The notes below the pieces were generated by a model, which saw only the letters and a program-made list of their open reading frames with translations, was not told the origin of the DNA and made no database searches. Shown one piece after another: positions 5,865-36,389 of a DNA stretch of 40,544 nt. The position numbers were made by a program, and so were the translations under genes. Source of the DNA: Syntrophomonadaceae bacterium. GTDB lineage: Bacteria; Bacillota; Dethiobacteria; DTU022. The stretch lies in assembly GCA_007119965.1 (NCBI GenBank), contig SKOR01000001.1, positions 1 through 40,544 of the forward strand, written 5' to 3'. The first letter of the stretch is position 1, and every line of letters begins with the position of its first letter.

Positions 5865-5903
5865 TTCTAAATCACTCCCATGTAGTATTTGGGTTTTCAT
5901 GCT

Positions 5904-6344: not shown

Positions 6345-6374
6345 TGGCTTATAACCTCCAACTCTTTTTCATAA

Positions 6375-6681: not shown

Positions 6682-6698
6682 AAAGGTAAGCAACAAAT

Positions 6699-6742
6699 CG
6701 GGTAATGAAACAGCAGAGCCTATTACCCGTAACATCTGCTGT
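6699..6742 (+). promoter_or_regulatory. Candidate pseudoknot or alternating-hairpin leader RNA
   Basis: Two perfect 8-bp inverted repeats are interleaved. CGGGTAAT (6699-6706) pairs with ATTACCCG (6722-6729), and ACAGCAGA (6710-6717) pairs with TCTGCTGT (6735-6742). The order A-B-A'-B', with connecting loops of 3, 4 and 5 nt, is that of an H-type pseudoknot, or of two mutually exclusive hairpins. A further TTACCCG at 6827-6833, just before the ribosome site, could compete for the first arm. The position early in the leader suggests control of the downstream gene. It matches no riboswitch class I can name. Confidence 0.45.
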
Positions 6743-6857
6743 AGCTTTTAACCATTGCTGTGCCTTTAACTGATCCTGTAATCGCAAACCCTTTGCAGCA
6801 AGTAAAATAACTTGACGGCTGTTTTCTTACCCGAATACTCTTAAGGGGGACGGTTAA

Positions 6858-8021: not shown

Positions 8022-8115
8022 AAACGCAGGTACAGAAACCCTGTCCGGTTCGAATTAAATATTTACAGGCTGAATAAGATAAACATGAGGGCGTTAAACC
8101 GGAAGGATTAACTCC

Positions 8116-12738: not shown

Positions 12739-12766
12739 TTGTAATGATCCTAAATAATGTTAAACT
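12739..12766 (+). promoter_or_regulatory. Putative promoter of acyltransferase copy 1
   Basis: TTGTAA, a 16-bp spacer and TAAACT form a weak sigma-A promoter. The same two blocks, TTGTAAT and TAATGTTAAACT, occur at identical spacing before the second acyltransferase copy, so this element was duplicated with the gene. Confidence 0.45.
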
Positions 12767-12797
12767 ATGTTTAGCAGCTTGTAAAGGAGGAAGTAAC

Positions 12798-13388
12798 TTG
12801 CTGAAATGGATTGCCATGTTTCTGTTCACCATCGGGGGCTGGACAAAGAAAGGGACTATTCCCGCTGATATCAGGAAATGCGTTGTCGTCGGTGGCCCGC
12901 ATACCAGTAACTTTGACCTGCTTTTTGCCATGGCCGGTTTCTATAAGATGGAATACCCGGTCAGGTTTTTGATCAAAAAAGAATGGTTAAAGCATTTTCC
13001 GCTTAAGAATGTGTTGCTGTCAGCCGGAGCGCTGGGCATTGACAGAAAAAAAACTGGCACCATGGTAGACGCAATGGCTGAATTGCTGATTAATGCGGAA
13101 GAAGACCTTGCTGTATTAGTTACTCCTGAAGGCACCAGGAAGCATACCTGTAAGTGGAAAACCGGTTTTTATCATGCCGCCCTGAAGGCCGGGGTTCCTA
13201 TTGTCCTGACCCACCTGGATTATGCCAAAAAAGAAGCCGGGGTCGGCCCCAGTTTTATGCCCACAGGCGATTATAAAAAGGATATGCAGATCGTCAGGGA
13301 TCATTACAAAAATATCACCCCAAAGTACCCTCAGAACTTTTGCCTGAAAATATACGTGGATGAAGAGCAAAAAGAATGTGAAAAGTAA
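12798..13388 (+). CDS. Lysophospholipid acyltransferase-like protein, copy 1
   Basis: This protein of about 196 residues is in the PlsC/AGPAT superfamily (LPLAT). It has the catalytic H-x4-D in GPHTSNFDLLF, where Asn precedes the Phe-Asp, and the acyl-acceptor motif in LVTPEGTRKHTCKWKTGFY. The family moves fatty acyl groups from acyl-ACP or acyl-CoA to lysolipids or similar acceptors at the inner membrane; the exact acceptor is unknown. I start at the TTG at 12798, seven bases behind AAAGGAGG, because the paralogue also starts with a TTG at the matching residue. The longer frame from 12744 would translate the conserved promoter blocks. Confidence 0.85.
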   Translation: MLKWIAMFLFTIGGWTKKGTIPADIRKCVVVGGPHTSNFDLLFAMAGFYKMEYPVRFLIKKEWLKHFPLKNVLLSAGALGIDRKKTGTMVDAMAELLINAEEDLAVLVTPEGTRKHTCKWKTGFYHAALKAGVPIVLTHLDYAKKEAGVGPSFMPTGDYKKDMQIVRDHYKNITPKYPQNFCLKIYVDEEQKECEK

Positions 13389-13417
13389 TATAATAAGTCC
13401 GGCAGGTTATCCCGCCA

Positions 13418-13445
13418 TTGTAATAATTGATGATAATGTTAAACT
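13418..13445 (+). promoter_or_regulatory. Putative promoter of acyltransferase copy 2
   Basis: The TTGTAAT and TAATGTTAAACT blocks are repeated with the same offset as before copy 1, giving TTGTAA-16-TAAACT. Conservation between the copies supports function better than either match alone. Confidence 0.45.
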
Positions 13446-13481
13446 TAGTGTAATTGATTTTTTAAGGGAGGAATATAATTT

Positions 13482-14069
13482 TTGAAGTTTTTCACTGTTT
13501 TCCTGTTTACAATTATGGGTTGGAAGCTTCAGGGCCAACTGCCCGCGAATACTAAGAAATGTATAGTGGTAGCAGCGCCGCACACTTCAAATTTTGACTT
13601 CATTTTTGCCATGGCCGGTTTCTACAAAATGAAAATCCCGATTAGGTACCTTTTAAAGCAGGAACTTTTTAACTTTTTCCTGTTAAAAAGGTTTTTTGTA
13701 AATTCAGGCGGCATGGGCGTCGACAGGAGCAAAAACAACACTCTCGTCGAGACGCTGGTTGAGTTAATTACATCTTCAAAAGAAAATATTGCCCTGATGA
13801 TTGCACCTGAAGGAACCAGAAAACTAACCCGCAGGTGGAAAACAGGCTTCTATTATACTGCCCTGAATGCCAGGATCCCAATAGTATTAAGCCACCTCGA
13901 TTATTCCAGGAAACTGGCTGTCGTCGGGCCGAGCTTCATACCCTGCGGATGCTATAGGAGAGATATGCAGATTCTAAAAAATTATTACAAGAATATCACC
14001 CCGAGGCACCCGGAAAAATTCAGCCTGGATATCTACGAAACTGATCATGAAGCGGTTTGTGCCGGATAA
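13482..14069 (+). CDS. Lysophospholipid acyltransferase-like protein, copy 2
   Basis: This 195-residue paralogue of the preceding gene shares MGWKLQGQLPAN-like and HTSNFDFIFAMAGFYKMK segments and the acceptor motif APEGTRKLTRRWKTGFYYTAL. The catalytic His-Asp pair and PEGTR are intact, so both copies should be active. It starts with TTG behind GGGAGG. Copy 2 has more hydrophobic and basic residues around residue 65 (LFNFFLLKRFFVNSGG) and is less GC-rich, which may mean divergent acceptor use. glpP follows after 24 bp, so glpP and copy 2 are probably co-transcribed. Confidence 0.85.
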   Translation: MKFFTVFLFTIMGWKLQGQLPANTKKCIVVAAPHTSNFDFIFAMAGFYKMKIPIRYLLKQELFNFFLLKRFFVNSGGMGVDRSKNNTLVETLVELITSSKENIALMIAPEGTRKLTRRWKTGFYYTALNARIPIVLSHLDYSRKLAVVGPSFIPCGCYRRDMQILKNYYKNITPRHPEKFSLDIYETDHEAVCAG

Positions 14070-21514: not shown

Positions 21515-22165
21515 TCAATCAGCCAGGCTGAACTTTTTCTGAACACGGTTATCGATAAAACCGACGACCCGATCCAATAGAACCGTAGTAATAACCACCA
21601 TAATTATTCCTGCTAAGAGCATCCCTGTATTGTAGGTTCGCATTCCCCGCATGATGATGCTGCCCATTCCGCCGGCTCCGATAAATACAGCATAGGTGGC
21701 CAGGGAAAAAGTCATGACCATTGCCGTCCGTATGCCGGCAAAAATAACCGGAAAAGTAAGGGGGATTTCCACCTTGAACAGCAGCTGCAGGTTGTTAGCC
21801 CCCATACCGAGGGCGGCTTCTTTTGTCATCGCCGGAACCTGGCTTATTCCGACACAGGTATTGCGGACAACCGGCAGCAGGCCGTAAATAACCAGGGCAA
21901 TCAGGGCCGGCCTGGTCCCGATACCCATGATCGGGATCAGAAAACCCAGCAGGGCTAAAATTGGAATGGTATAAAGAATACCGACAGAACCGAGGACAAG
22001 CTCCTGTAAACGGTTAGTCCTGGAAATAATAATTCCCAGGGGCACCCCGATCAGAATCACAAAAAATGTAGCCCATATAACAAGCATGAAATGGTCTGTT
22101 AATGTCGCAAGCACGTACTCTCTCCTGGCAATGAGGTATGTAAAAGCATCGGCAAACACTTCCAT
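21515..22165 (-). CDS. opuCB: Quaternary-amine ABC transporter permease, OpuCB/OpuCD type (1)
   Basis: This 216-residue inner-membrane permease has about five to six hydrophobic helices. The binding-protein-dependent transport loop is TKEAALGMGANNLQLLFKVEIPLTFPVI (EAA motif, about 125-150). Start MEVFADAFTYLIARREYVLATLTDHF and length match OpuC-type permeases. It sits three bases after the ATPase gene. Two distinct permeases flank the ATPase and binding-protein genes, the standard OpuC layout for uptake of glycine betaine, carnitine, choline or related compounds. Confidence 0.9.
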   Translation of the reverse strand: MEVFADAFTYLIARREYVLATLTDHFMLVIWATFFVILIGVPLGIIISRTNRLQELVLGSVGILYTIPILALLGFLIPIMGIGTRPALIALVIYGLLPVVRNTCVGISQVPAMTKEAALGMGANNLQLLFKVEIPLTFPVIFAGIRTAMVMTFSLATYAVFIGAGGMGSIIMRGMRTYNTGMLLAGIIMVVITTVLLDRVVGFIDNRVQKKFSLAD

Positions 22166-22168
22166 AAT

Positions 22169-23269
22169 TTACCCCGCCTCCCGGGACAGCAGGCCTGCGC
22201 AGGCCTGGAATGTAACAATGCCTTCGAAAACATTTTCCGGCGAAGCAACAGGAAGCCAGGTTCGCCCGCCATAGAGCATTTGTTCAACGGCTTTTTTTAT
22301 AGAAAGGTCGGGAGAGCAGCCGGGTAAAAGCGGGCGCACCGCCCCTGCCGGTATTACCCCGTCAGGACCGACATCTTCAAGAGAAACATAACCCACACCG
22401 GCACCATTTTGATCAAGGACAATAATATTTTCCCAGCCGTTCATTGCCGTTTTTAATTTAAAAGGTTCTCCTTCCCGCACGTTCGGGATATCATTTTCCA
22501 TCACCCGTTTAACGGGAATGTTGTCAAGGGCATCAAAAATTGCACCCTGGCCGACGAAACTGCGCACAAATTCATCTTCATTTTTGACAAGTTCCATAGC
22601 ATTGCCTACAGAGGCCATTTTACCGTTTCTCATAATACCGATGCGGTTACCGACCTTGAAAGCCTCCTGTATATCATGGGTAACGAATACAATTGTCTTC
22701 TGAATGGTTTCCTGCAGCCGCAGCAATTCGTTTTGCAACTGCTCACGGGTGAGTGGATCGACTGCACCAAAAGGCTCGTCCATCAACAGTATTTCAGGAT
22801 CTCCGGCCAGGGCCCTGGCCACACCGATACGCTGCTGCTGCCCGCCGCTCAATTCACGGGGGTGACGTTTCAGGTAAGAAGCGGGAAGCCCTACGGTTTC
22901 AATCAGTTCATGAGCCCGTTTTTTTTGCTCTTTTTTGGGGCGCCTTATCAGCTGGAGGACAAAAGTTATATTTTCTTCAATAGTGAGGTGTGGCAATAAG
23001 CCAATATACTGAATAACGTAACCTATAGAACGACGGAGCTCGACAGCGTCGAGCTCCTTCACGTTCATCCCGTTAACCAGTATATTACCTGAGGTATGCG
23101 GTATCAGCTGGTTGATCATCTTTAACGTAGTAGTTTTCCCGCAACCGGAAGGGCCGATCAACACAAATATTTCGCCCTTCTCGATCGACAGGTTTACACC
23201 ATCAACCACTTTCGTTGTATCGTAAACCTTAACTACATCCTGTAACTCTACACTGATTTCACGGGTCAT
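22169..23269 (-). CDS. opuCA: Quaternary-amine ABC transporter ATPase, OpuCA type
   Basis: This 366-residue protein has Walker A GPSGCGKTTT, signature LSGGQQQRIGVARALA, Walker B ILLMDEPFGAVD and the switch His in VFVTHD. Residues from about 255 to 360 form a tandem CBS region (VKRVMENDIPNV to VFEGIVTFQACAGLL), as in OpuCA, where CBS domains sense ionic strength or c-di-AMP. It powers import of quaternary ammonium solutes. AAAGGCGG lies upstream of the ATG. Retention of CBS domains implies osmotic or nucleotide control even if the system serves catabolism. Confidence 0.93.
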   Translation of the reverse strand: MTREISVELQDVVKVYDTTKVVDGVNLSIEKGEIFVLIGPSGCGKTTTLKMINQLIPHTSGNILVNGMNVKELDAVELRRSIGYVIQYIGLLPHLTIEENITFVLQLIRRPKKEQKKRAHELIETVGLPASYLKRHPRELSGGQQQRIGVARALAGDPEILLMDEPFGAVDPLTREQLQNELLRLQETIQKTIVFVTHDIQEAFKVGNRIGIMRNGKMASVGNAMELVKNEDEFVRSFVGQGAIFDALDNIPVKRVMENDIPNVREGEPFKLKTAMNGWENIIVLDQNGAGVGYVSLEDVGPDGVIPAGAVRPLLPGCSPDLSIKKAVEQMLYGGRTWLPVASPENVFEGIVTFQACAGLLSREAG

Positions 23270-23292
23270 CAGTATGCCGCCTTTCTGTATCC

Positions 23293-24246
23293 TTAAATAA
23301 GCCCTCTTTCTGTCAGGAAATCTCTTGCTACATCTTCGGGTTCCATGTTTTGCACTTCAACGAGATAGTTAAGCTCTGTCATGGTTTCTTCATCAATAGT
23401 ACCCAGCAGCGGGGCCAATGCTTCGCCTACAGAGGGGTACATTTCCAGGATCTCGGTACGGACAACAAATGTAGCATCGTAAGGCGGGAAGAATTGCTGG
23501 TCATCTTCCAGGACGACAAACCCATATTCCTTCAGCCTGCCATCAGTTGAAAAACAGGTCGTTACATCGCCTTCGCCCTGGGCAACAGCTTCATAGAAGA
23601 ATGCGGTATCGACAATAACCTGGTTCATATCCAGACCGTAAACTTCCTGCAGGCCGAGGTACACATCGGGGCGGGTAAAACTGGTCGAATCGCCAACAAA
23701 GGTTAAGCCTTCTGTCTGGCCCAGGTCGGTAAGAGTGCTGAGGCCCAGCTCTTCTGCTCTTTCAGCAGTCATGGCAATAGCAAAGGTATTTTCAAAACCG
23801 ATTGCATCGAGAACGGTCAGGCCAAACTGTTCTGCATAAGCTTCCTGCACTTTTCCTAAAATCTCATCATGGTTGGGCAGATCTTCATTCTCAAGAACTA
23901 CCATCCAGGAAGTACCGGTGTATTCAGGATAAATATCAATCTGACCGCCGACGATAGCCGGATGGAGCATTTCGGTCGGGCCCATATCAGCTGTACTGCT
24001 ATCTACAGTGTGTACCGTATTTTCTTCAATTAATATGGCCGCCATGTAAGCCAGGGTCATATTTTCAGCCCAGCCCTTGCCGCCGACTTTAATCTCGGTA
24101 GGTTCTTCAGCAGCAACTTCGTCTGCCGGTTGATCTGTATCAGGCTCTTCAGGAGCGGCTTCATCCGTTCCGCATCCGGTTACCATAAATAATCCAACGA
24201 AAAATACTGCTGCCATCATAAGCACTAAATATTTGCTGTTCTTCAA
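23293..24246 (-). CDS. opuCC: Quaternary-amine ABC transporter substrate-binding lipoprotein, OpuCC type
   Basis: This 317-residue lipoprotein has signal MMAAVFFVGLFMVTGC, the Cys being the lipidation site, and an acidic Glu/Pro/Ala linker before the mature domain. The start KVGGKGWAENMTLAYMAAILIEE and IYPEYTGTSW are those of OpuAC/OpuCC binding proteins. Aromatic residues such as Trp in GTSWM and Tyr near PEYTG may form the cation box for a trimethylammonium group, but the ligand is not determined. It starts with TTG behind AGGAGG. The 107-bp gap to the next permease gene holds TATAAA-like sequence but no clear promoter. Confidence 0.92.
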   Translation of the reverse strand: MKNSKYLVLMMAAVFFVGLFMVTGCGTDEAAPEEPDTDQPADEVAAEEPTEIKVGGKGWAENMTLAYMAAILIEENTVHTVDSSTADMGPTEMLHPAIVGGQIDIYPEYTGTSWMVVLENEDLPNHDEILGKVQEAYAEQFGLTVLDAIGFENTFAIAMTAERAEELGLSTLTDLGQTEGLTFVGDSTSFTRPDVYLGLQEVYGLDMNQVIVDTAFFYEAVAQGEGDVTTCFSTDGRLKEYGFVVLEDDQQFFPPYDATFVVRTEILEMYPSVGEALAPLLGTIDEETMTELNYLVEVQNMEPEDVARDFLTERGLI

Positions 24247-24353
24247 AATACTTGACCTCCTAGTGTTTTTGCTAATTTATATAAAGCGCCCTGCACATTG
24301 CCTGAACAGCTCACCTCCGTTCATGTATACAGGATTATCTTCAAGCCGAAACT

Positions 24354-25001
24354 TCAGGCCGCTCCTGTTATAAGCTGAAGCCTGCGCTCCAAAAGACCTA
24401 AAATCTGATCGAAAAACAGGGCCATCAGGGAAACAGGGATTGTTCCCGCCAGGATCAGGTAATTATCCATCATCGAGATGCCCTGAAAGATTAACTCGCC
24501 CATTCCCCCGGCGCCGACCAGGGCTCCCATGGTAGTAATTCCCACTGTCAGCACCGCTACGGTGCGTATTGCTGCCATAATAATCGGTAAAGCGAGAGGC
24601 AGTTCAACACGGATTAACATCTGAAAAGGAGTGGCGCCCATTCCCCTGGCTGCTTCCTTTATTGAAGCATCGACGCCCATGATGCCCGTACAAGTATTCC
24701 GCAGCACCGGCAGCCAGGAATAGATTACCAGGGCAGTAATAGTTGGCAGCCACCCCAACCCCATGAAGGGTAGTAAAAAACCTAAAACTGCCAGCGATGG
24801 TATTGTGTAGAGCATTCCGGCTACATCAATAGCATAGCCGCTTAGCTTTGGCCTGCGGGATAAAAAAATACCTACGGGTACCGCAGTCGCTGTGCCAATC
24901 AAGACCCCGAACAGGGACATCCAGGCATGGCGGGTTGCCAGTCTCAGAAGAGTTTCTCTCAGTTCCCAAAAGTATTGGAAAAAATCAACTACCGCTTCCA
25001 A
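24354..25001 (-). CDS. opuCD: Quaternary-amine ABC transporter permease, OpuCD type (2)
   Basis: This 215-residue permease is homologous to the other one, with EAA loop IKEAARGMGATPFQMLIRVELPLALPII and the final GAGGMGELIFQGISMMDN segment. I place the start at the TTG at 25001, seven bases behind AGGGG, because the product then has the length of its partner; a TTG 12 codons earlier has no ribosome site. It lies 57 bp after panB, so panB and the transporter probably form one transcript. Confidence 0.9.
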   Translation of the reverse strand: MEAVVDFFQYFWELRETLLRLATRHAWMSLFGVLIGTATAVPVGIFLSRRPKLSGYAIDVAGMLYTIPSLAVLGFLLPFMGLGWLPTITALVIYSWLPVLRNTCTGIMGVDASIKEAARGMGATPFQMLIRVELPLALPIIMAAIRTVAVLTVGITTMGALVGAGGMGELIFQGISMMDNYLILAGTIPVSLMALFFDQILGLLERRLQLITGAA

Positions 25002-25058
25002 TGTTAATCCCCTGCCCCCTTTGACTCTGAATCCCAAGTAATCATTGCATACCGCCGG

Positions 25059-25910
25059 TTAACTGTCAAACTCGCTGAAGAGTTTTTCGAATGCTTCCAG
25101 CGGTTCGGAAATATGGTATACATGCTCATCCGTCGGGAATAATCCGTTTTTCACATCACTGATATATGCCTTGAAAGCTTCAACCGTAACCCCGGCAACA
25201 TCGGCATACTGCTTGACAAATTTCGGTGTAAATATTTTAAATTGGCCCAGCATATCACCGCTGATTAAAAGCTGCCCGTCACATGGACCGGCACCGATCG
25301 AGTAGACCGGGATATGCAGTTTCCGGGCGATAAAAGCAGTTACTTCCGGCGGCACTGCTTCAATTAGCAACGAAAAAGCCCCTGCTTCCTGGACGGCAAG
25401 AGCGTCCCTGATTACCTCACGGGCATTATTAACATCCCGCCCCTGGGCCTTGAAACCGCCCAGCTGACCGGAACTCTGGGGAGTAAGGCCGATGTGGCCC
25501 ATAACCAGTATGCCGGCATCGGTGATCGCCCTGATCCTGCCGGCCACCCTTTGCCCTCCCTCCAGCTTTATGCAGTCAACAGCTGCTTCCTTAATAAAGC
25601 GGACTGCGTTCTGCACCGCCTCCTGGTCAGTGGTTTGGTACGAACCGAAAGGCATGTCGCCGATCACCCAGGTCTCGGGAGCACCACGGCGGACTGACTG
25701 GCAGTGGGCAATACAATCAGCCATCGTTACCGGGATGGTACTGTCGTAACCCATAACCAGCATCCCCAGGGAATCGCCGACCAGCAGCATATCCATGCCC
25801 GCCTGTTCGCCGAACAGCGCCGTCGGGTAATCGTAGGCAGTAATCCATGCGACCTGTTCACCCTTTTTTTTCATCGTAATGAAATCTATAACACTTTTTT
25901 TCTTAACCAT
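25059..25910 (-). CDS. panB: 3-methyl-2-oxobutanoate hydroxymethyltransferase (PanB)
   Basis: This 283-residue protein matches PanB throughout. It has MLLVGDSLGMLVMGYDSTIPVTM, carrying the metal-binding Asp, WVIGDMPFGSYQ with the second Asp, VDCIKLEGG with the metal Glu, and IEAVPPEV with the catalytic Glu. PanB adds a hydroxymethyl group from methylene-tetrahydrofolate to ketoisovalerate for pantothenate synthesis. panC and panD are absent, and it is joined to betaine-type transport genes instead. The start at 25910 (AGGTGG upstream) removes an implausible 52-codon extension. A decayed copy of its 5' end lies 300 bp upstream. Confidence 0.9.
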   Translation of the reverse strand: MVKKKSVIDFITMKKKGEQVAWITAYDYPTALFGEQAGMDMLLVGDSLGMLVMGYDSTIPVTMADCIAHCQSVRRGAPETWVIGDMPFGSYQTTDQEAVQNAVRFIKEAAVDCIKLEGGQRVAGRIRAITDAGILVMGHIGLTPQSSGQLGGFKAQGRDVNNAREVIRDALAVQEAGAFSLLIEAVPPEVTAFIARKLHIPVYSIGAGPCDGQLLISGDMLGQFKIFTPKFVKQYADVAGVTVEAFKAYISDVKNGLFPTDEHVYHISEPLEAFEKLFSEFDS

Positions 25911-26085
25911 AATCCACCTGCGTTCTTTAATAATTTGGATCTGCTCAGCTAAACCCCGGTTTTCCGGCAGCTGCAAACAAAGACCCGGGTCCCCTTGAAG
26001 GCGTAAGCAGATGCTTTCACTTATAATCCCGAAAGCACAGTAGAATACTTTTTTTAAGAATTTCAAATCATGGGGAAAACCTTCG

Positions 26086-26101
26086 GCACCTGTGAAGGTG
26101 C
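26086..26101. repeat. Perfect hairpin near the panB transcription start
   Basis: GCACCT and AGGTGC flank a 4-nt loop. It falls at the expected 5' end of the panB transcript, so it could stabilise the RNA or act as an operator. There is no T tail, so it is not a terminator. Confidence 0.4.
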
Positions 26102-26109
26102 TCGGTTAA

Positions 26110-26137
26110 ATTATACCAACAATCAAAAATTTTACAA
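26110..26137 (-). promoter_or_regulatory. Sigma-A promoter of panB-opuC
   Basis: On the - strand TTGTAA, 16 bp and TATAAT lie about 200 bp upstream of panB. It gives the panB-transporter genes their own promoter, separate from the sigma-54 promoter of the two upstream genes. Confidence 0.55.
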
Positions 26138-26214
26138 CAAACAAAATGTAAGTAATTATTATTAAAGATTGGATATTTTGTAAGGCAGGCTGCAATCTCC
26201 CCCTCCCGACAAGC

Positions 26215-26325
26215 GGAGCCGCCGGGTAATCACAGGCAATAATCCAGGCGGCCTGCTTATCATTTTTTTATCGTCATGAAGCCAGCAGCACTTTTTCCTT
26301 GGCTATAATCCACCTGTGTTCTTTG
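26215..26325 (-). pseudogene. Decayed 5' remnant of a second panB
   Basis: About 110 bp align, with a few small gaps, to the ribosome site and first 30-odd codons of the intact panB (25817-25928). Shared blocks include the leader AATCCACCTG.GTTCTTT and the codons for AWI.A.DYP. The start codon is ATA instead of ATG, there are frameshifts and several stops, and the rest of the gene is missing. It lies directly after the mttB-family stop, so an earlier operon may have run opine dehydrogenase-mttB-panB. The remaining intergenic DNA (25911-26214) holds the panB promoter and hairpin. Confidence 0.75.
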
Positions 26326-26334
26326 CTGGTTTTA

Positions 26335-27807
26335 TTAAGCCGCTGATCCGGATTCAACCAGGACAATTATTTTCTGCATTTCGGCCTCAACAATTTCGTC
26401 AAGCGGCTCAGGCCGGTGCTCTGCTAAAAGCTGCCTGGCCTTATCAGTTAGCCGCTGATCGTAGGTAATTTTACCTTTTGCTTCCCAGGCAGTATACTGC
26501 TCACGGTTGAACAGCTTCGGAAGCCAGAAAGCCGATTTGAAATTGCGGAAAGTGTGGTCTTCCTGCAGGAAGTGTCCCCCGGGGCCTACCGCATCAATCA
26601 CATCAAGGGCCAGGGTTTCATCATCAACCCTGATTCCGGCAACTATCTTGCGCACATAGCTGATTATCTCATCACCCATAACCAGCCCCTGCAGGGAACC
26701 CGCCATTCCCGATTCCAGGTAACCAACATCATGAACCAGGTTCGCCCCGCTTAGGGCAGCACTGTAAATCGTCAGGGCATATTCAATAGCTGACTGCATG
26801 TCAAGCGCTTTTGAATCGCTGCACCCGGCTGTGCTGAACATGGGAAGGCCAAGGTAGTGGATCAGGTCTGTCAGTCCGGCATGCATCAGGCAGAAGTCCG
26901 GAGAAGAACCATAACAGTGGATCATGGTATGCATATCCATGTTGGTGACCACCCCTCCGCTAATAAAGGGAGCCCCCTCTTTCTTCAACTGGTGCACGAC
27001 GAGGCCGGCCAGGCTGTCGGCGGCAGCCATCACGATAACTCCGGCCAGTGAGGCTGGGGCAGTTGCATTGCCCTGCACACCGGGGGTATAAATTATAGGC
27101 AGACCTTTATCTGCCATGAACAGTAATTTATCCATGCCTTCCCCGGGATGCTTGAGGGGCGTGGCCGGTTCGGTATAGAGCACGAATGATGGGTTATCCC
27201 TTAGATTTTCCGCTCCTCCGGCGGCAACTTCACACATCGCGACCATCGAAGCCAGGTTCTGGACGTTAAAAGTCCATGATATAATTGGCTTGGTGGTGTT
27301 CTGAAGCATGGCATGAACTTCATGGACATCTGCCAGCACCGGCTCCACATCCGAGATGGTCGCTAAAGACATACAAAAATCCATACCGGGCAGTCCGTCG
27401 ACCAGGGTAGCGACGTTGCAGACATCCTGCCTGGTCACTTTGCGCCGTTCGCCCGAATCCAGATCAATGAAATTTGGGGTGGTCGGCCCCGGGCCGAAAT
27501 AGGTGTTGTTCCCTTCCAGGAGAAGCCTTCTTCTGCCGTTCCGGTCGGCCAGGGAGATTCTCGATGGCGCTGAACGGACCGCCTTATCTACCAGGCGCGC
27601 CGGAATCCAGACCCGTTCCCCTTCCACCCGGCAGCCTGCAGCTCGAAGCAGGTCCAGGGCTTCCAGGTTAAAAACCTTAGTCCCGGTGCCCTCTAATACA
27701 TCCAGCACAGCGCTGTATATTCTTTTGCATTGACTTTCCGACAGGACTGAAAACTGGACTGATCGGTTATCGACCTGGTTACTGGCAATGCATTTGTCCC
27801 AATTCAT
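26335..27807 (-). CDS. Non-pyrrolysine MttB-family (trimethylamine methyltransferase superfamily) protein
   Basis: This 490-residue protein belongs to the MttB/COG5598 superfamily. It has FGPGPTTPNFIDLDSGERR, TTKPIISWTFNV and FSTAGCSDSKALDMQSAIE, where the last stretch aligns with the region following the pyrrolysine of true trimethylamine methyltransferases. There is no in-frame amber codon, so it is of the pyrrolysine-free type whose studied members (MtgB, MtpB, MtcB) demethylate glycine betaine, proline betaine or carnitine to a corrinoid protein. No corrinoid protein gene is in the window. GAGGAGG precedes the ATG. It follows the opine-dehydrogenase gene by 56 bp, and the pair shares the sigma-54 promoter. 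Confidence 0.9.
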   Translation of the reverse strand: MNWDKCIASNQVDNRSVQFSVLSESQCKRIYSAVLDVLEGTGTKVFNLEALDLLRAAGCRVEGERVWIPARLVDKAVRSAPSRISLADRNGRRRLLLEGNNTYFGPGPTTPNFIDLDSGERRKVTRQDVCNVATLVDGLPGMDFCMSLATISDVEPVLADVHEVHAMLQNTTKPIISWTFNVQNLASMVAMCEVAAGGAENLRDNPSFVLYTEPATPLKHPGEGMDKLLFMADKGLPIIYTPGVQGNATAPASLAGVIVMAAADSLAGLVVHQLKKEGAPFISGGVVTNMDMHTMIHCYGSSPDFCLMHAGLTDLIHYLGLPMFSTAGCSDSKALDMQSAIEYALTIYSAALSGANLVHDVGYLESGMAGSLQGLVMGDEIISYVRKIVAGIRVDDETLALDVIDAVGPGGHFLQEDHTFRNFKSAFWLPKLFNREQYTAWEAKGKITYDQRLTDKARQLLAEHRPEPLDEIVEAEMQKIIVLVESGSAA

Positions 27808-27863
27808 GAAACAACCTCCTCACAACCCTGAAATGTATTCCTTAAACTAAACAGACCAACCTG

Positions 27864-29075
27864 TTAAGCCCCGTCACGGAGATACCGGTTCAGCATATCC
27901 CGATCCATGCCGCCAATACCCAGGTACTCGAGCGTATAGCCGCTGCTGTAATAATCTTTATCCATCATAGCGTTCGCCAGGTTAATCATTGAATCGATGA
28001 CCGGTGTTTTGACGCCGAAAACTTCGCCAAGCTGGTGGTAAACATGACAGCCTACGGGGATATCTTCAGTAATGTAACGGTTGTTGATATCGTGCGGCCC
28101 CGTGCCGTACTGGATGTAATCCTGCTCTTCAAAGGGGATTACATAATCCGGGCCCATGTATTCAGCGCCAAGGATGCTTTCCCGGTGAAAAAACTGCTTT
28201 TTTTCAAACTGCTGGATGCCGACTGCAAGCGCCTCGGCCAGTTTGCACTGTTCCAGGTAGAACGAGTATTGGACCCTGGCAATTGAGGGGCAGTAGGCAT
28301 GAGAATAAATCGAATAATCGTACTTGTCATTGCCATAAATTACTCCCCAGTTTTCCATTACCCCGACTCCGAGGATTGTACCCGGGCAGTGCAGGACAGG
28401 GTTCACGTTGCTGAAACCGATATCCAGGGCGGTATCACCGGGATCCAGGCCGCCACAGCTGGTAATCGCATCCATCGAACCAAGGTATTTGGCGCTTTCC
28501 AAAAACTGTTCCTGGTCTGCCATCGGCATGGCAGCGCCGCGCAGGGTAATCGCCCGGTAATATACCCGGATGCGGGGCAGGACCACACCGCCCTTGATAT
28601 CAACCCGGCAGCCGTATGGCGCGCTTGACCAACCGCCGACAATAATTTTTTTATCACAGCCCGCTTCGCGCATCATTTTGCGCAGCAGCAGTGAGCCGAA
28701 ATTGTCGGGGTAAATGTGAACAACCATCCCGTCTTCCAAACACGGTATCAGTTTCTCAAAAAACACCTGGTGCCCGAATGCGGGCGTAGCAACCACAACG
28801 AGGCCGGCCCCTTTGACTGCTTCGGCTACATCTTCAGTAACCATTTCCATCGCAGCAGTCCCGCTTCGCTCAAACCCGTACAGGTTCAGTTGATCGCCGT
28901 AAAAGACAATGCCGCTTTCCCTCACCCCGAAAAGGCTCTTTTGTGAAAACGGGGGTAAATCGCATAAACGGACCCTGGCCCCCGCCAGGGCACAGTCTGC
29001 TGCCTGGGCTTTGCCAACCGCACCGGCGCCTAATACCGCAACCGGTTTTTCCTTAAGATAAAGCATGTCTGCCAC
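27864..29075 (-). CDS. Opine/octopine dehydrogenase family protein
   Basis: This protein of about 403 residues has an N-terminal Rossmann motif VAVLGAGAVGKAQAADCALAG and the C-terminal helical domain of NAD/NADP octopine/nopaline dehydrogenases. That domain shows NPVLHCPGTILG with the catalytic-type His, NNRYITEDIPVGC and GEVFGVKTPVIDSMINLA. The family joins or splits amino acids and 2-oxo acids with NAD(P)H. Here it may oxidise an N-substituted amino acid derived from the transported amine. I start at the GTG at 29075, eight bases behind GGGAGGGG, because the ATG at 29099 lies upstream of that site. Other members of the 6-phosphogluconate-dehydrogenase-like superfamily, including ketopantoate reductase, are distant alternatives. 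Confidence 0.82.
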   Translation of the reverse strand: MADMLYLKEKPVAVLGAGAVGKAQAADCALAGARVRLCDLPPFSQKSLFGVRESGIVFYGDQLNLYGFERSGTAAMEMVTEDVAEAVKGAGLVVVATPAFGHQVFFEKLIPCLEDGMVVHIYPDNFGSLLLRKMMREAGCDKKIIVGGWSSAPYGCRVDIKGGVVLPRIRVYYRAITLRGAAMPMADQEQFLESAKYLGSMDAITSCGGLDPGDTALDIGFSNVNPVLHCPGTILGVGVMENWGVIYGNDKYDYSIYSHAYCPSIARVQYSFYLEQCKLAEALAVGIQQFEKKQFFHRESILGAEYMGPDYVIPFEEQDYIQYGTGPHDINNRYITEDIPVGCHVYHQLGEVFGVKTPVIDSMINLANAMMDKDYYSSGYTLEYLGIGGMDRDMLNRYLRDGA

Positions 29076-29113
29076 TTTTTTAACCCCTCCCTGGATCATA
29101 CTAACATTTTATA

Positions 29114-29342: not shown

Positions 29343-30755
29343 ATGATTAAAACCGATCACCTGGATCATATAACAGAATTATTGAATAGCGCCTTAAATG
29401 TTATAGAAGACGGGATACATATTATCGATGAGCGGGGGATAACAGTCTTTTATTCCAGGTCTTCCGAAAGGATTGAGTGCAATAAAGCTGATAATGTTTT
29501 GGGCAAGCATATTACAGAAACCTACCAGCTTAACGACGAGAGCAGCATCCTTTTAAAAGTCCTTAAATTGGAAAAACCAATCGAAAACCACCAGACCACC
29601 TACCTGACTAAAAACGGCCGCGAAGTCAGCATCCTGACCAATACTTACCCCGCATTTGCGGACGGCAGAATCATCGGCGCCGTTTCTGTGAACAGGGACA
29701 TAACCGGCAACAAGCAGCTGATCGATAAGGTTATTCAACTGCAAAAACAACTCAACTCCAGCCAAACCAAAAATGTAACCCAGTACACTTTCAGGGATAT
29801 AATAGGAGAGAGCGCCGCGATCCAAAATACAATCCAGTTTGCGCAGAGGATAGCATTAAACATGTCGCCGCTGCTGATTTACGGGGAAACTGGTACCGGC
29901 AAAGAACTCTTTGCTCAGAGTATACACAACTACAGCTTCCGATCGGACGGCCCCTTTGTGGCAGTTAACTGCGCCGCAATCCCGGCAACCCTGCTGGAAA
30001 GCATCCTTTTTGGAACAAAAAAAGGAGCTTTTACAGGCGCAGAAGATAAACCCGGCCTGTTTGAAGAAGCTGACCAGGGAACCTTGTTCCTCGATGAAAT
30101 CAGCTCGATGGATATTACTCTGCAGAGTAAACTGCTGCGCGTGCTTGAATCAAAAACGGTCCGCCGACTCGGCGGAAAAACGGATATCAAGGTAAACCCG
30201 CGGATTATCAGCGCAATTAACACCGATCCCCAGGAAGCGATTATAAAACAAAGCCTGCGCCAGGACCTCTACTACCGCCTGGCCGTGGTAACCCTGACTA
30301 TTCCATCCTTACGTGAGCGCATGTCGGACATACCTCTTCTGGCCCATTTTTTTATTTCCAACATTAATAAAATAATGAATAAAGGGGTCAGTGAAATTTC
30401 TCAGGAGGTCCACGATATAATGCAGCGGCACAAATGGCCCGGTAATATAAGGGAACTGCAGCATGCCGTTGAACACGCCATGAACTATGCGGAAGAAAAT
30501 GCTGGAATACTGGAACTGAGGCACCTGCCACCTCACCTGCTGCACAAGTATCATCACAGCAGGCCGATCACCAGCGACCAATACGGCAAGAGCTGCGGAA
30601 CCGGCAGCCTGAAAGAGAGCCTGAAACAGTTCGAATCAGAAGCGATCAGGGCGGCGCTGGACAATTGCGATCAGAACATCACCAAAGCGGCAGCTGCCCT
30701 GGGCATGTCGAGGCAAAATCTGCAGCAGCGCATCAGGCGCCTGGGCCTCTTTTGA
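29343..30755 (+). CDS. PAS-domain sigma-54-dependent transcriptional activator
   Basis: This 470-residue activator resembles RocR. An N-terminal PAS domain (about 10-125, IIDERGITVFYSRSSERIE) should sense a small ligand. The AAA+ domain has Walker A GETGTGKE (about 181), the sigma-54 contact loop GAFTGA (about 228) and Walker B GTLFLDEI, plus an arginine-finger region near LRQDLYYRL. The C-terminal Fis-type helix-turn-helix is ITKAAAALGMSRQNLQQRIRR. All parts needed for open-complex formation are present. It is divergent from the opine-dehydrogenase gene, with promoter and palindrome between them, so it very likely controls that operon. GAGGGA precedes the ATG. Confidence 0.93.
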   Translation: MIKTDHLDHITELLNSALNVIEDGIHIIDERGITVFYSRSSERIECNKADNVLGKHITETYQLNDESSILLKVLKLEKPIENHQTTYLTKNGREVSILTNTYPAFADGRIIGAVSVNRDITGNKQLIDKVIQLQKQLNSSQTKNVTQYTFRDIIGESAAIQNTIQFAQRIALNMSPLLIYGETGTGKELFAQSIHNYSFRSDGPFVAVNCAAIPATLLESILFGTKKGAFTGAEDKPGLFEEADQGTLFLDEISSMDITLQSKLLRVLESKTVRRLGGKTDIKVNPRIISAINTDPQEAIIKQSLRQDLYYRLAVVTLTIPSLRERMSDIPLLAHFFISNINKIMNKGVSEISQEVHDIMQRHKWPGNIRELQHAVEHAMNYAEENAGILELRHLPPHLLHKYHHSRPITSDQYGKSCGTGSLKESLKQFESEAIRAALDNCDQNITKAAAALGMSRQNLQQRIRRLGLF

Positions 30756-30781: not shown

Positions 30782-30982
30782 GCCCCTCGCTTACCGGCTA
30801 AATCTTGCTGCCCTGCCGTTCCAGCCGGTTTTTTCAGCGAAAGGCTGGGAACAGGCTTAGAAACAAAATATTTGTTCCGGAAAAATCTTTATTAAAGGAT
30901 TTTGCCGTGATATCCATAAATTATTTACAGCAGCTATTAACACCGCCGGTCTGGCATTGGCGGCATGCAGGTGTTTACCCGG

Positions 30983-32254
30983 ATGAAAGATATATCTAAA
31001 AAAGCAGCGGACCGGAAGCGGCTGATCGCCCTGGCAATAATTTCCACAGCTTACATAGCTGTATTTGTTAACATACAGGGTTTTAAGGCCATGCTGCCCC
31101 TGGTTCAGGACGAATTTCTAATCAGCAGGGCCCAGGTGGGCCTCTACTCCAGTTTTTACTTTTTGAGCACTGTTATAATAGCAGTTTTCAGCGGGCGCAT
31201 TGCCGATCACCTGGGGACAAAACGGGGGCTGGTTTTAGGTGTCGGCATCGTCGCCATCATGATATTCCTTCACTCTGTTTCGCCCTATTACGGGCTGATC
31301 CTGATCCTGGCCTTCATTACCGGAATCGCTTTCAGTTTAATTACCCCTTCAGTTAACAAGGGCGTCATTGAAATTTCCGAACCGTCGAAGAGAAGCTTAT
31401 CAATGGGAATTGTCCACGGCGGAGGCGGCCTGGGAGGTTTCCTGGGCGCGGTTATGCTCCCTTATTTCGGGGAGATGTTCGGCTGGAGGACGGCCCTTTT
31501 GTTTGGCAGCATATTTGCGATCATGGCTGCTTTATTCATTCTCAGGTTCTACCAGCAGACAGCAGCTGTGGAAGATGAAACCGGCAGCAGTGCCGGGGCC
31601 CGATCAACCACATTAAAAGAAGACCTGGCCTACCTCCTGCAAAACCGTTACCTGGTCAGCGTATTCTCGATGGGTGCAGTTTTCGGCATGGGCATTTCTT
31701 CTGTCACCGGGCACTTCCCCCTTTACCTGGCCCGCGACCTGGGCACCACCGCTGCTTTTGCCGGGCTCGGCCTCGGTGTTTTTCATGTTGGGGGCATTCT
31801 CGGCCAGCCGTTTTGGGGGCTGGTCAATGAAAGAGTATTCCATGGCGACAGAAGGAAGGGGCTTGCCCTGCTCGGCCTGCTCATCGCCGGGCTGCTCTTA
31901 TTCTTTGGCCTGGCAGTCAGCAGGTATAATTTTTCATCCTATACTATCCTTTTCTTTTCCTTCCTGCTGGGATTCTGTACCATGGGGATCATTGCAATCT
32001 ACTTCACCGCTGTAAGCGAGCTGGTGTCTAAAAAATACGTTGGCGTGGTTACCGGCCTGGCTCTCATTTTTCCCCGAACCAGCACCGTGGTTACCCCGCC
32101 ACTTTTCGGCCTTATTGCTGATATAAGCGGGACCTATGCGCTCAGCTGGGTCATCCTGGGAGCCACTGTACTGGTAATGACTCTTGGTTTCATTTATTAC
32201 AGCGGAAGATACTCCGGTTCCCCATCAGCAAACGATCCGACAGCCGGGGGTTGA
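30983..32254 (+). CDS. Major facilitator superfamily transporter
   Basis: This membrane protein of about 423 residues has roughly twelve hydrophobic segments. The loop after helix 2 reads SGRIADHLGTKRGLVLG, the MFS motif A (G-x3-D-x2-G-x-R/K). A central basic/acidic loop separates the two halves near residue 200. The start at 30983 is favoured by GCAGGTG upstream; an ATG at 30965 in frame has no site. Upstream, 30862-30876 is a perfect small palindrome (AACAAA-ATA-TTTGTT) that may be an operator. The substrate is unknown; proximity suggests an organic acid or amine of the neighbouring pathway, but no shared promoter is visible. Confidence 0.85.
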   Translation: MKDISKKAADRKRLIALAIISTAYIAVFVNIQGFKAMLPLVQDEFLISRAQVGLYSSFYFLSTVIIAVFSGRIADHLGTKRGLVLGVGIVAIMIFLHSVSPYYGLILILAFITGIAFSLITPSVNKGVIEISEPSKRSLSMGIVHGGGGLGGFLGAVMLPYFGEMFGWRTALLFGSIFAIMAALFILRFYQQTAAVEDETGSSAGARSTTLKEDLAYLLQNRYLVSVFSMGAVFGMGISSVTGHFPLYLARDLGTTAAFAGLGLGVFHVGGILGQPFWGLVNERVFHGDRRKGLALLGLLIAGLLLFFGLAVSRYNFSSYTILFFSFLLGFCTMGIIAIYFTAVSELVSKKYVGVVTGLALIFPRTSTVVTPPLFGLIADISGTYALSWVILGATVLVMTLGFIYYSGRYSGSPSANDPTAGG

Positions 32255-32509: not shown

Positions 32510-34174
32510 ATGGCCGGCTCTGAAACATTCCGTAAAAAAAATGTTCAAGTTGCCGCCAGCCCTTACGGCATGGTTTCAACTGCCTCCTCTGTGGCCACAC
32601 AGGCAGGAGTCCGTATGCTCGAGCTGGGCGGCAATGCTGTTGATGCTGCTGCTGCCGCAGCCTTTTGTCTCGGCGTTACCGAGCCACAGGCTTCAGGCCT
32701 CGGCGGCCAGAGCATGATTCTTTTACACCACAGCCCGAACGGGAAGCCGGTTACTATCGCCCTCGACGGATCATCGCGCGCTCCTTACGGCATCGATCCG
32801 AATAAGCTTCCCCCTCAGCCTTTAAAGCTGGGAATCAGGTCAACTACCGTGCCTTCTACCCCGGCTGCTCTCGGCTACCTGCTTGACAACTACGGGACTT
32901 TACCGCTTGAAGAAGTTTTGAAACCGGCAATTTCTGCGGCCGAAAATGGTTTCAAAATATCTGCCCTGCAGCGTAAGCTTATTTCCAGGGAGAGCGAAAA
33001 GCTGACTGACCGGGAAGTCCGCGTTAACTTCTTTAAAAACGGCAGGCCCCTGAATGCCGGCGATACCCTTTTTCAACCCCGCCTTGCAGACTGCCTTAAA
33101 ATGTTGGCTAAAAATGGCTGGAAAGATTTCTACCTGGGCAGTGTGGGAGAACAAATTATTGAGGATATGAAAAAACGCGGGGGCCTGGTTACGAGGGCCG
33201 ATTTAAGCCAGATTCCCCTGCCGGTTCAACGGGAAGCGTTAATCGGAGATTATCGCAGCTACAGCCTGGCCACTTTTCCACCCCCGGGAGCGGGTCGAGC
33301 CCTTGTCCAGATCCTGAACACCCTGGAGAATATGGAGCAGGAAAAGCTGGTCCCCGATTCACCAAAGTGCTGGTTACTCCTGGCTATGACTTTTCGGGCG
33401 GCTCTCGTAAAAAGGGAGCGGCTCCCCGTTGACCCCGCCCTTTATTCCCAGCTTGATCACGTATGGGGTGTCGATAAAGAAAGCGCCTCTTATATAGCAT
33501 CCCATATAAAAAATGTGCTGGCTTACCTGGATGAAGATCGACATCCTCCCCCACCAACATCAGGCGAAACAACTCACCTTTCCGCTGCCGACAGCTTCGG
33601 TAACGCCGTTGGGATAACCCAGTCTATAGAGTTGGTTTTCGGCGCTAAGACAGTAGCAGCCGGCCTCGGCTTTTTCTACAACAACTACATGAGCGCCTTT
33701 GACTACAAGGATATGATGCACCCATACTACCTGGTTCCCGGAGGCATGCCATACAGCAGTGTTGCGCCGACCATGCTGTTTAAGGAAAACGGAGATCCGT
33801 ACATGATGCTGGGCAGCCCCGGCAGCGAGCGAATATCAACCACCCTGGCCCAGGTTATCTGCAGGATTATCGATTGCGGGCAGGGATTGGCCGAAGCTGT
33901 GGAAGCTCCCCGCCTGCATGCCGGAAGTTCGGGAAAAGTAACTATAGAGAAAAGAAGCTTTAGACCGGAAGTTGTCGAACCATTAAAACGAGCCGGGTTC
34001 CAGGTCAGCAGCAGGGGGGCATACAGCTTTTACCTGGGCTGTGTTCAGGCAGTGGAATTTCCGGAAACCCCCGGAGGAGATTTTACCGGAGTTGCCGATC
34101 CCCGCCGGGACGGAACCGCCGGCGGGCCGCTCTATCCGCCCGGGAATAGAACTCGCTTAAACCGCCCCGGGTAA
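32510..34174 (+). CDS. Gamma-glutamyltransferase family protein
   Basis: This 554-residue N-terminal-nucleophile hydrolase has the autoprocessing site SGETTHLSAADSFGNAV, with the new N-terminal threonine at about residue 355. MLELGGNAVDAAAAAAFCLGV (about 35-55) and GSPGSERISTTLAQV (about 430) are family blocks. It lacks a signal peptide, so a cytoplasmic location is expected, unlike exported Ggt. It would transfer or hydrolyse gamma-glutamyl or similar N-acyl bonds. The next gene lies 43 bp downstream and encodes an ATP-grasp/peptidase-like fusion, suggesting both handle one peptide-like metabolite. AAGGTGAG precedes the ATG. Confidence 0.87.
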   Translation: MAGSETFRKKNVQVAASPYGMVSTASSVATQAGVRMLELGGNAVDAAAAAAFCLGVTEPQASGLGGQSMILLHHSPNGKPVTIALDGSSRAPYGIDPNKLPPQPLKLGIRSTTVPSTPAALGYLLDNYGTLPLEEVLKPAISAAENGFKISALQRKLISRESEKLTDREVRVNFFKNGRPLNAGDTLFQPRLADCLKMLAKNGWKDFYLGSVGEQIIEDMKKRGGLVTRADLSQIPLPVQREALIGDYRSYSLATFPPPGAGRALVQILNTLENMEQEKLVPDSPKCWLLLAMTFRAALVKRERLPVDPALYSQLDHVWGVDKESASYIASHIKNVLAYLDEDRHPPPPTSGETTHLSAADSFGNAVGITQSIELVFGAKTVAAGLGFFYNNYMSAFDYKDMMHPYYLVPGGMPYSSVAPTMLFKENGDPYMMLGSPGSERISTTLAQVICRIIDCGQGLAEAVEAPRLHAGSSGKVTIEKRSFRPEVVEPLKRAGFQVSSRGAYSFYLGCVQAVEFPETPGGDFTGVADPRRDGTAGGPLYPPGNRTRLNRPG

Positions 34175-34217
34175 AGCTAAAGCAGTGTAAATTAAAAAAA
34201 CGAGGAGGCAGCCGTAA

Positions 34218-36389
34218 TTGAAAATAGCCATTATCTACAACCGTGACAGCCAGGCCGTGATCAACCTGTTTGGAACTCCCAACCGGGAAAAATATGGTCT
34301 GCAGACAATAGACATGATCACCGAGGCCCTGGTAAAGGGAGGACATCAGGTTAAAGCGTTCGAAGGGGATAAAAACATTATCTACGCCCTGGAAGAGTTT
34401 ATGCCTTCGGTTATTACCGGGGAACGGCCCGGCCTGGTTTTTAACCTCAGTTACGGGATCCAGGGCAGGGCCCGCTATACTCACATCCCCGGAATTCTCG
34501 AAATGCTGGGGATTCCTTACGTCGGGTCAGGGCCTGAAACCCATGCAATAGCCCTGGATAAAGTGTTAACCAAAATGGTGCTGCTGCAAAAAGGTTTGCC
34601 TACCCCCAGGTTTACTGTCCTTGAAACGCCCGATTTCTCACTGCCCCTGAAAGACGGCCTGAATTACCCCCTGATTATCAAACCGAAGGACGAAGCGGTA
34701 TCTTTCGGGTTAAAAATCGTTAATAGTGATCCTGAACTGAGAGAAGGGGTCGACGTAATATACGGTATGTTCAAATCCCCCACCCTGGTAGAAGAATATA
34801 TCGACGGCCGCGAAATCAATGTCGGCCTGCTCGGTAATGACCCGGTGGAAGCCTTTCCCCCCGTCGAAATAATTTTTGACCAGGGAGAGCAAATATTCAC
34901 GTACGAAGATAAAATTAAAACCAGCGGCCGCACCCTTAAGAAAAGCTGCCCGGCGTCCCTTGACCCGGAAGTGGCAGCGCAGGTTGAGCGTCTGGCAATC
35001 GAGGCATTTAACTCCCTGGGCTGTTTTGACAGCGCCAGGGTTGATTTTCGGATTGATCGGCAGGGCAACCCGTACATTCTGGAAATTAACTCCATGGCCA
35101 GCCTGGGCCCGGGCGGTTCTTATGTTTATGCCGCTGAAAAAGTAGGCCTTGATTACAGCGCCCTGGTCAACCGCCTGATCGAAATCACCAGCAGCCGCTA
35201 TTTTGGGCCGCACCTGGTTGAAGATAGCTCAACCATGCTTCAGGATGATCCCAGGGCTGCAGCTTTCACCTCCCTGACCCAAAACCGCGATAAGATTGAA
35301 GAGGAACTTAAAGATTGGACCAACCTGCCAAGCTGGACAGGTGATCCTGTTGGCCTTGGCGCGGTCATAAAAAAACTGGAGTACCAGTTTACTGAACGGG
35401 GGCTGCATCCGGTAAAAGAATTTACCAGCCGCCGGTCAGCCTGGACCTGGCAGACCGATGCCGGTTTTGAGGGCGGCACTCTGCTGGTCGCCTCGGTAGA
35501 CGTGCCCCGGGATGGAGGCGGCGGATATCCGATCCCGTTCAGGCGTGATCCGGAATGGCTTTACGGCGAGGGTATTGCCTCGAGCCGCGCCGGCATCACC
35601 TGCATTTTTCAGGCGCTGGGTGTCCTGGAGGCGCTGGAAAAGCTTCATGACAGCAAGCTGGGCGTTTTTATTTATGCCGATGAGGGCCGTGGCATGCGCT
35701 ACAGCGCTGCATACCTTCAACAGGCGGCTTTGAAAGCCGACCGGATAATAGTTATGCAGCCCGGCTTTCGCAGCGGAAAGATTGTCGACCAGCGCCGCGG
35801 CTCACGTAAGTACAGCATCCTGATTGAAGGCGCTTTCCAGCGAATTGGAGCCCATGGCTCTTCCAGCGACCTGATGAGCTGGTTTTTATACCGGGCTGAA
35901 CGGGTCGGGCTGCTCAGCAACCAGGAGGGGCGGTTAACCGTAGCCGTGCAGGAGGTGCACTCTGAGCGCTACAGCGTACTTCTCCCCCATCGGATAAGGG
36001 CTACTGTCTATGTTACCTTCCTCGATTCTGCCATGGCCGATGAAGCGGAATCCGCCCTTCATGAACTTTTTGCCCCTGAACAGGGCGAAGAACATGAAGA
36101 GGCGATGGTCTATATAGAAAGGCTGGAAGAAAGGCCGCCCTTAAACCGGTCGGCGGCGGCTGAAGAAACAATCAATCAGCTCAAAAAAATCAGCGAAGAC
36201 TGGGAATTGCCTTTTGGGGTGGAGTCGAGCCTTCTGCCCTCTGCCGCAGGCGAAGTGCCGGAAGGCAAAGCGGTAATCTGCGGCATGGGGCCGGCCAGCA
36301 GGGATATGTTTACTCCCCATGAATGTGTCCACCGGGGCGAACTTTTACAAAGATCGCTGCTTCTGACCCTCCTGCTGCTCGAAGAATAA
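34218..36389 (+). CDS. D-Ala-D-Ala-ligase-like ATP-grasp fused to an M20-like peptidase domain
   Basis: This 723-residue fusion has an N-terminal ATP-grasp ligase (about 1-335) with VEEYIDGREINVGLLGN and the metal-binding ILEINSMASLGPGGSY, as in D-alanine-D-alanine ligase. The C-terminal part (about 400-723) follows the M20 carboxypeptidase pattern: LLVASVDVP, YGEGIASSRAG, FIYADEGRG and a terminal FTPHECVH. Compared with CPG2-type enzymes, the first metal His, the bridging Asp and one Glu appear replaced by Ser, Ser and Gly, while the catalytic Asp, one Glu and the last His remain. The domain may bind rather than cut peptides. The start is TTG behind GAGGAGG. Product unknown. Confidence 0.8.
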   Translation: MKIAIIYNRDSQAVINLFGTPNREKYGLQTIDMITEALVKGGHQVKAFEGDKNIIYALEEFMPSVITGERPGLVFNLSYGIQGRARYTHIPGILEMLGIPYVGSGPETHAIALDKVLTKMVLLQKGLPTPRFTVLETPDFSLPLKDGLNYPLIIKPKDEAVSFGLKIVNSDPELREGVDVIYGMFKSPTLVEEYIDGREINVGLLGNDPVEAFPPVEIIFDQGEQIFTYEDKIKTSGRTLKKSCPASLDPEVAAQVERLAIEAFNSLGCFDSARVDFRIDRQGNPYILEINSMASLGPGGSYVYAAEKVGLDYSALVNRLIEITSSRYFGPHLVEDSSTMLQDDPRAAAFTSLTQNRDKIEEELKDWTNLPSWTGDPVGLGAVIKKLEYQFTERGLHPVKEFTSRRSAWTWQTDAGFEGGTLLVASVDVPRDGGGGYPIPFRRDPEWLYGEGIASSRAGITCIFQALGVLEALEKLHDSKLGVFIYADEGRGMRYSAAYLQQAALKADRIIVMQPGFRSGKIVDQRRGSRKYSILIEGAFQRIGAHGSSSDLMSWFLYRAERVGLLSNQEGRLTVAVQEVHSERYSVLLPHRIRATVYVTFLDSAMADEAESALHELFAPEQGEEHEEAMVYIERLEERPPLNRSAAAEETINQLKKISEDWELPFGVESSLLPSAAGEVPEGKAVICGMGPASRDMFTPHECVHRGELLQRSLLLTLLLLEE

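Follow-up and report, generated by a model that had tools for sequence, protein, structure and literature searches.

The question raised by the locus described here is what use a bacterium would have for an ATP-grasp ligase that is fused to a metallopeptidase fold without its metal ligands. The fusion is encoded in a stretch of 40,544 nucleotides from a Syntrophomonadaceae bacterium (the window; SKOR01000001.1, contig C116 of the 2.3 Mb host genome), where it follows a gene for a gamma-glutamyltransferase (GGT)-like Ntn-hydrolase. An earlier note on this DNA, made from the letters alone, had conceived of the pair as a make-and-remodel system for a gamma-linked dipeptide or conjugate. We found that the fusion, the GGT-like gene and a third gene, which encodes an N-formylglutamate-amidohydrolase (FGase)-like protein, form a three-gene cassette, whose product may well be a small amide. 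The individual parts are known; new are their combination, the conserved dead M20 domain and the altered GGT. Neither a Ddl-M20 fusion nor the cassette was described in the literature searched, although either may have been mentioned before.

The fusion protein and its family

Both open reading frames (ORFs) of the earlier note were recovered, as was the in-frame joining of ligase and M20 domain (Table 1). In Pfam, the fusion ORF matches Dala_Dala_lig_C with 125 bits over residues 124-322, and its Peptidase_M20 score of 23.3 bits falls just short of the cut-off of 24.6. An AlphaFold2 (AF2) model, built from a 27-sequence family alignment, had a mean pLDDT of 86.6 and a pTM of 0.60, the low pTM meaning that the domain arrangement is uncertain. 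Foldseek searches with this model gave Ddl for the ligase half and carboxypeptidase G2 (CPG2; TM 0.74-0.75 by target) as the best PDB match of the M20 half, which confirms the M20 fold. A separate model of a Gemmatimonadota homologue from group B (see below), around one third identical, again returned CPG2 first (TM 0.78-0.82) and Ddl for the ligase; Peptidase_M20 is matched by 16 of the 19 group-B members.

Counting each locus once, 43 distinct fusion loci were obtained. The same domain order, ligase followed by M20, occurs in seven or more phyla. In the tree, the fusions all fall into one clade (support 100/98) apart from Ddl, with a ligase-only protein of Pirellulales at its base and a split into two groups, A and B (each 100/98). 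The fusion singled out by the earlier note is thus a conserved one. The host genome itself holds a paralogue (G000:C102) that is 72% identical to the window fusion. A chance read-through of two genes was ruled out by the single open frame and by the presence of the same fusion across phyla. In an isolate of Anaerotalea alkaliphila (L035:9710-12163) a frameshift or a sequencing error at the M20 part divides the fusion into two ORFs.

Between groups A and B the ligase halves are about 50% identical and the M20 halves about 20%, which indicates that the M20 half is under weaker constraint. Estimates of dN/dS per domain were mostly saturated, and the few defined values (0.035-0.08, at a dS near 2) are weak evidence for purifying selection in both halves. 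Ligase-only relatives in G008 and G018 (L101:8994-9983 and L102:5253-6278) were placed inside group A on a long branch, and therefore have lost the M20 half; neither GGT nor FGase is found at their loci. They provide a natural test of the purpose of the M20 half.

The ligase half

Within the family alignment K115, K155, S162, E199, R274, D276, E289 and N291 are invariant in all 27 members and K232 is present in 26. In terms of DdlB, the equivalents of K97, K144, E187, R255, D257, E270 and N272 are invariant and that of K215 is kept in 26 of 27. The position of Ddl S150, however, is a Val in 25 of the 27 members, that of Y216 is never a Tyr, and the N-terminal GGxSxE motif, taken for the D-Ala recognition residue E15, is absent as judged by eye. 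The scores against the curated NCBIfam Ddl models fall short of their cut-offs (169.4 versus 243 and 154.3 versus 245.65 bits). The residues describe an intact ligase that is not a Ddl, as the catalytic ones are retained and the D-Ala-binding ones are not. A role as the Ddl of cell-wall synthesis was ruled out by the true Ddl that the host genome encodes elsewhere (at C89), by the separate clade and by the non-conserved pocket.

The M20 half

The alignment with CPG2 was bridged by an intact M20 gene that lies beside a Latescibacterota fusion (L061:9647-10840); the Arg in the RPAF motif of CPG2 has a role in carboxylate binding. In the window fusion all five metal ligands are replaced (H112, D141, E176, E200 and H385 by S426, S455, G490, Q514 and F698), and the last four of these are lost in 27 of 27 members, so that the earlier note was right about the loss but, with three ligands, too low in its count. 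H112 survives in some members, and most group-B members have a Glu at the D141 position. D428, the counterpart of CPG2 D114, persists, as does in group A E489, at the position of the base E175; both are found in 13 of 13 group-A members. R639 of the Arg-Pro motif (R639-P640), which aligns with RPAF, is invariant across the family. As to alternative metal ligands, the M20 half has no His or Cys that is common to the whole family; group A shows a single invariant His (H591, in the lid region) and a single Cys (C688), both outside the ligand positions.

A complete two-metal site with alternative ligands is thus not conserved, and the pseudo-M20 half, which evolves much faster than the ligase yet keeps its one invariant Arg, is most likely a non-catalytic domain, as the earlier note had supposed, that dimerises or holds a substrate. 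The notion that it is still an enzyme, acting via other ligands or a single metal, could draw on the retained D428 and E489, on the H112 of some members and on the group-B Glu, but is very improbable given the lack of a shared His or Cys, the four ligands that are gone throughout and a divergence far faster than that of the ligase. The fusion would then represent a metallopeptidase fold that, free of metal, has been put to new use as a fixed component of an amide ligase.

The GGT-like partner

The GGT of the window is the only GGT homologue found in the host genome. A signal peptide is absent in 17 GGTs, and the window copy has no hydrophobic N-terminus, in line with the apparently cytoplasmic location assigned to it before. 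The start of its small subunit aligns at position 354, with T354 opposite T391 of E. coli, the Thr nucleophile at the autoprocessing site; the cassette GGTs retain this Thr, with a Ser in two. The E. coli residues R114, N411, Q430 and D433 of the gamma-glutamyl pocket are replaced by S, E, Y and A, respectively, in nearly all cassette GGTs, including the window copy. Moreover, the cut-off of the TIGR00066 equivalog (357.85 bits) is reached neither by the window GGT (347.0) nor by that of L044 (355.7). A canonical GGT was ruled out on the basis of these pocket residues and this cut-off, and the same residues make canonical gamma-glutamyl recognition doubtful. Since the nucleophile is kept but the gamma-glutamyl pocket is not, the 'gamma-linked' nature of the product, as conceived of earlier, is unproven and could not be upheld. 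Speculatively, a different pocket, e.g. for a beta-amino or N-blocked acyl group, might be rebuilt from the Glu that replaces N411 and an Arg that lies two residues beyond position 114.

The three-gene cassette and its distribution

A GGT-like gene adjoins the fusion in 24 of the 43 loci and an FGase-like gene is part of the gene run in 19. The link between fusion and GGT extends over several phyla and two main gene orders. Group A mostly has the order GGT-fusion-FGase, group B fusion-GGT-FGase, and one of the variants is fusion-GGT-fusion (G006 and L039). The FGase-like gene, which is absent from the window and present after the paralogue, was missed by the earlier note: the window locus has a GGT and no FGase, the C102 locus an FGase and no GGT, and the two may complement each other. 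The FGase-like protein scores 134 bits against PF05013 (cut-off 28.9), and stays far under the cut-off of the HutG equivalog TIGR02017 (73.7 and 103.4 versus 278.75 bits).

In a set of 98 genomes from the class, the fusion is present in 10, a cassette-type GGT in 11 and an FGase in 11, with 8 genomes shared. The Fisher p-value is 4.4e-8 for fusion and GGT as well as for fusion and FGase, and is to be read as indicative because the genomes are related. In G063 and G066 the locus survives as remnants that lack the fusion, and the copy in G068 is broken. In four sampled groups the fusion is rare (4/294, 2/249, 4/247 and 1/237 genomes), which suggests horizontal spread or repeated loss; the cassette has probably spread horizontally.

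Some cassettes have further neighbours. The paralogue cassette (L090:1814-5149) comes after genes for DapL, a LysA-like decarboxylase and a TspO-like membrane protein, of which the LysA-like and TspO-like genes also precede the cassette of G011. Beside the L044 cassette (4947-9233, minus strand), genes for an FGase-like protein, a GCS2, a RimK-like ATP-grasp protein and a C39-like peptidase lie in a row, as a separate cluster of the amidoligase type.

A proposed function and its alternatives

The reading that we prefer, with middling confidence and on sequence grounds, is that the conserved cytoplasmic cassette serves both to synthesise and to trim a small amide or a conjugate akin to a dipeptide. 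The ATP-grasp half, to go by its conserved catalytic residues, would activate a carboxylate as an acyl-phosphate. As in Ddl, this would be joined to the amine of a second substrate that bears a carboxylate and is held by R274, but the substrates would not be a pair of D-alanines. The pseudo-M20 half would not hydrolyse; it would dimerise the ligase and/or hold the carboxylated substrate or product through R639. The GGT-like Ntn-hydrolase, with its altered pocket, and the FGase-like amidohydrolase, which are observed in association with the fusion, would presumably act on amide bonds of this same compound, either to turn it over or to unmask a precursor.

The likeliest specific product, put forward tentatively, is a peptide or beta-amino-acid compatible solute, analogous to the N-acetylglutaminylglutamine amide (NAGGN) system, because of the neighbouring genes, the solutes known and the saline-alkaline hosts. 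MscS channel genes are part of the cassette gene run in L049, L050/L100, L052 and L099, and, with 4-8 MscS genes per genome, chance is an unlikely explanation for direct adjacency within a single genome. In L094 a gene for a Na+:alanine symporter lies 8 bp upstream of the cassette, L061 contains a glutamate-2,3-aminomutase-like gene (594.9 versus a cut-off of 650), and a class-I glutamine amidotransferase (GATase) adjoins the fusion in L051, L058, L092 and L093, and as a fragment in L099 (Bacteroidota and a Latescibacterote). These osmotic and ion-transport neighbours of some loci had escaped the earlier note. Beta-glutamate and NAGGN are known solutes (PMC1224877, PMC8070244), and several hosts originate from hypersaline soda-lake sediment (the CSSed samples, described in PMC6146748). 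A more explicit version, to which we give somewhat less credence, is an osmolyte system of anaerobes and halo-alkaliphiles in which the dead M20 would hold the growing product and the GGT-like and FGase-like hydrolases would degrade the solute when salinity falls.

Several points weigh against this interpretation. GGT and FGase are missing in most Bacteroidota members and in several others, and the fusion can therefore do without the hydrolases. Most of the MscS loci come from related Marinilabiliaceae, each genome with its 4-8 MscS genes, and the habitat link (many hosts being from saline or alkaline places) is a tentative one, taken from record titles. The exporter-type transporters (EamA, DHA2 MFS) of other loci would fit a secreted product.

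Such a product, a small-peptide natural product in which the ligase makes a dipeptide, MFS or EamA proteins export it and the hydrolases in the cytoplasm serve for self-protection of the producer or for maturation of the compound, is unlikely in our estimation. MFS genes do adjoin the cassette in the window, G000:C102, G006 and G011, an EamA gene follows L036/L057 and a DHA2 efflux MFS gene follows L046, and the distribution is sporadic (e.g. the 4/294 genomes of one class). Yet the transporters vary from locus to locus, tailoring enzymes and nonribosomal peptide synthetase genes are lacking, and a core that is identical over several phyla would be unusual for a niche antibiotic.

We regard as more doubtful still a catabolic or salvage module, in which the GGT-like and FGase-like proteins break down an N-acyl or amide compound after its import, while the ligase serves to recycle or store some of it. 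In the window, the upstream sigma-54/PAS activator and MFS gene, close to a betaine-type importer and MttB, would suit it, as would the catabolic relatives of FGase (HutG), but the FGase score lies far under the HutG cut-off, and the most conserved component is an ATP-consuming ligase, which argues for synthesis. Protein modification, with the ligase adding amino acids to a protein like RimK and other amidoligases and the hydrolases removing them, finds an echo in the RimK-like ligase upstream in L056 and the RimK/GCS2/FGase/C39-type cluster beside the L044 cassette, but is highly improbable, as Ddl-type ATP-grasp enzymes use free small substrates and no conserved target-protein gene adjoins the cassette.

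The synthesis and trimming of a small amide conjugate, our preferred reading, points to a metabolite that bacteria of seven or more phyla produce. As the cassette is compact and has few genes, both its product and its role lend themselves to direct tests in hosts that are in culture (Carboxylicivirga, Oceanirhabdus, Anaerotalea).

Other features of the window and a related locus

Table 1. Features of the cassette locus in the window and of the genes directly upstream
Feature	Position	Strand	Remarks
PAS + sigma-54 activator, candidate regulator	29343..30755	+	PrdR-like, under the curated cut-off; upstream
MFS transporter	30965..32254	+	MFS_1 158 bits; directly upstream of the GGT-like ORF
GGT-like Ntn-hydrolase, 554 aa	32510..34174	+	PF01019 388 bits; predicted nucleophile Thr354
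Fusion protein, 723 aa, TTG start	34218..36389	+	Ddl-like ATP-grasp ligase + pseudo-M20; single open frame
Ligase domain, residues 1-330	34218..35207	+	Catalytic residues kept; Ddl-fold match TM 0.84
Low-confidence linker, residues 331-342	35208..35243	+	pLDDT <50 at residues 332-341
Pseudo-M20 domain, residues 343-723	35244..36386	+	CPG2-like; CPG2 is best Foldseek match

The GGT-like and fusion ORFs, both on the plus strand, are separated by 43 bases. The upstream MFS gene is a possible, unproven member of the operon; it appears to be of a different type from the MFS genes that adjoin the cassettes in G000:C102, G006 and G011. On the minus strand (21518-29099), and divergent from the regulator upstream of the cassette, lies a gene group that consists of a glycine-betaine-type ABC importer (OpuAC, ABC and two permeases), a ketopantoate hydroxymethyltransferase, an MttB-family methyltransferase in one open frame and an octopine-dehydrogenase-like gene. 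Elsewhere in the window (12744-14069) two tandem homologous ORFs of 214 and 195 aa represent a family without assignment.

In L105 (10063-14307, minus strand) a KamA-type aminomutase fused to a Ddl-like ligase is followed by a Ddl-like ligase with a C-terminal part that looks like a GNAT acetyltransferase. This related system looks like a pathway for N-acetylated beta-amino-acid peptides.

Comparison with known systems

With Ddl (COG1181-type ATP-grasp) the fusion shares the fold, the ATP and Mg residues and the Arg to which the second substrate binds by its carboxylate, whereas it differs in its separate clade, in the lack of the E15/S150/Y216 triad and in the attached M20 domain. Its pseudo-M20 half has the two-domain M20 fold and the Arg-Pro motif in common with CPG2 (M20A), the best structural match for both subgroups, but has lost the five metal ligands in the window member and sits behind a ligase. 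The cassette GGT resembles gamma-glutamyltransferase (T03) in its Ntn-hydrolase fold, the Thr nucleophile at the small-subunit start and S462/S463, and is set apart by the missing signal peptide, the conserved S, E, Y, A signature and a score below the NCBIfam equivalog cut-off. Likewise, the FGase-like gene belongs, well above the cut-off, to the Pfam family of HutG/FGase (PF05013), and deviates by its low equivalog score and its location in a cassette.

The NAGGN osmolyte system comprises AsnO, Ngg and a glutamyl aminopeptidase (PA3459-PA3461; PMC8070244). Neither AsnO nor the GNAT-ATP-grasp fusion was seen among the cassette loci examined. Nevertheless, both systems can be described as an amide ligase that is accompanied by a peptidase-type protein and an amidotransferase, for which latter the class-I GATase in the loci of Bacteroidota may be the counterpart. 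What distinguishes the cassette from the NAGGN system are its GGT-like and FGase-like hydrolases and its Ddl-like ligase with a dead M20.

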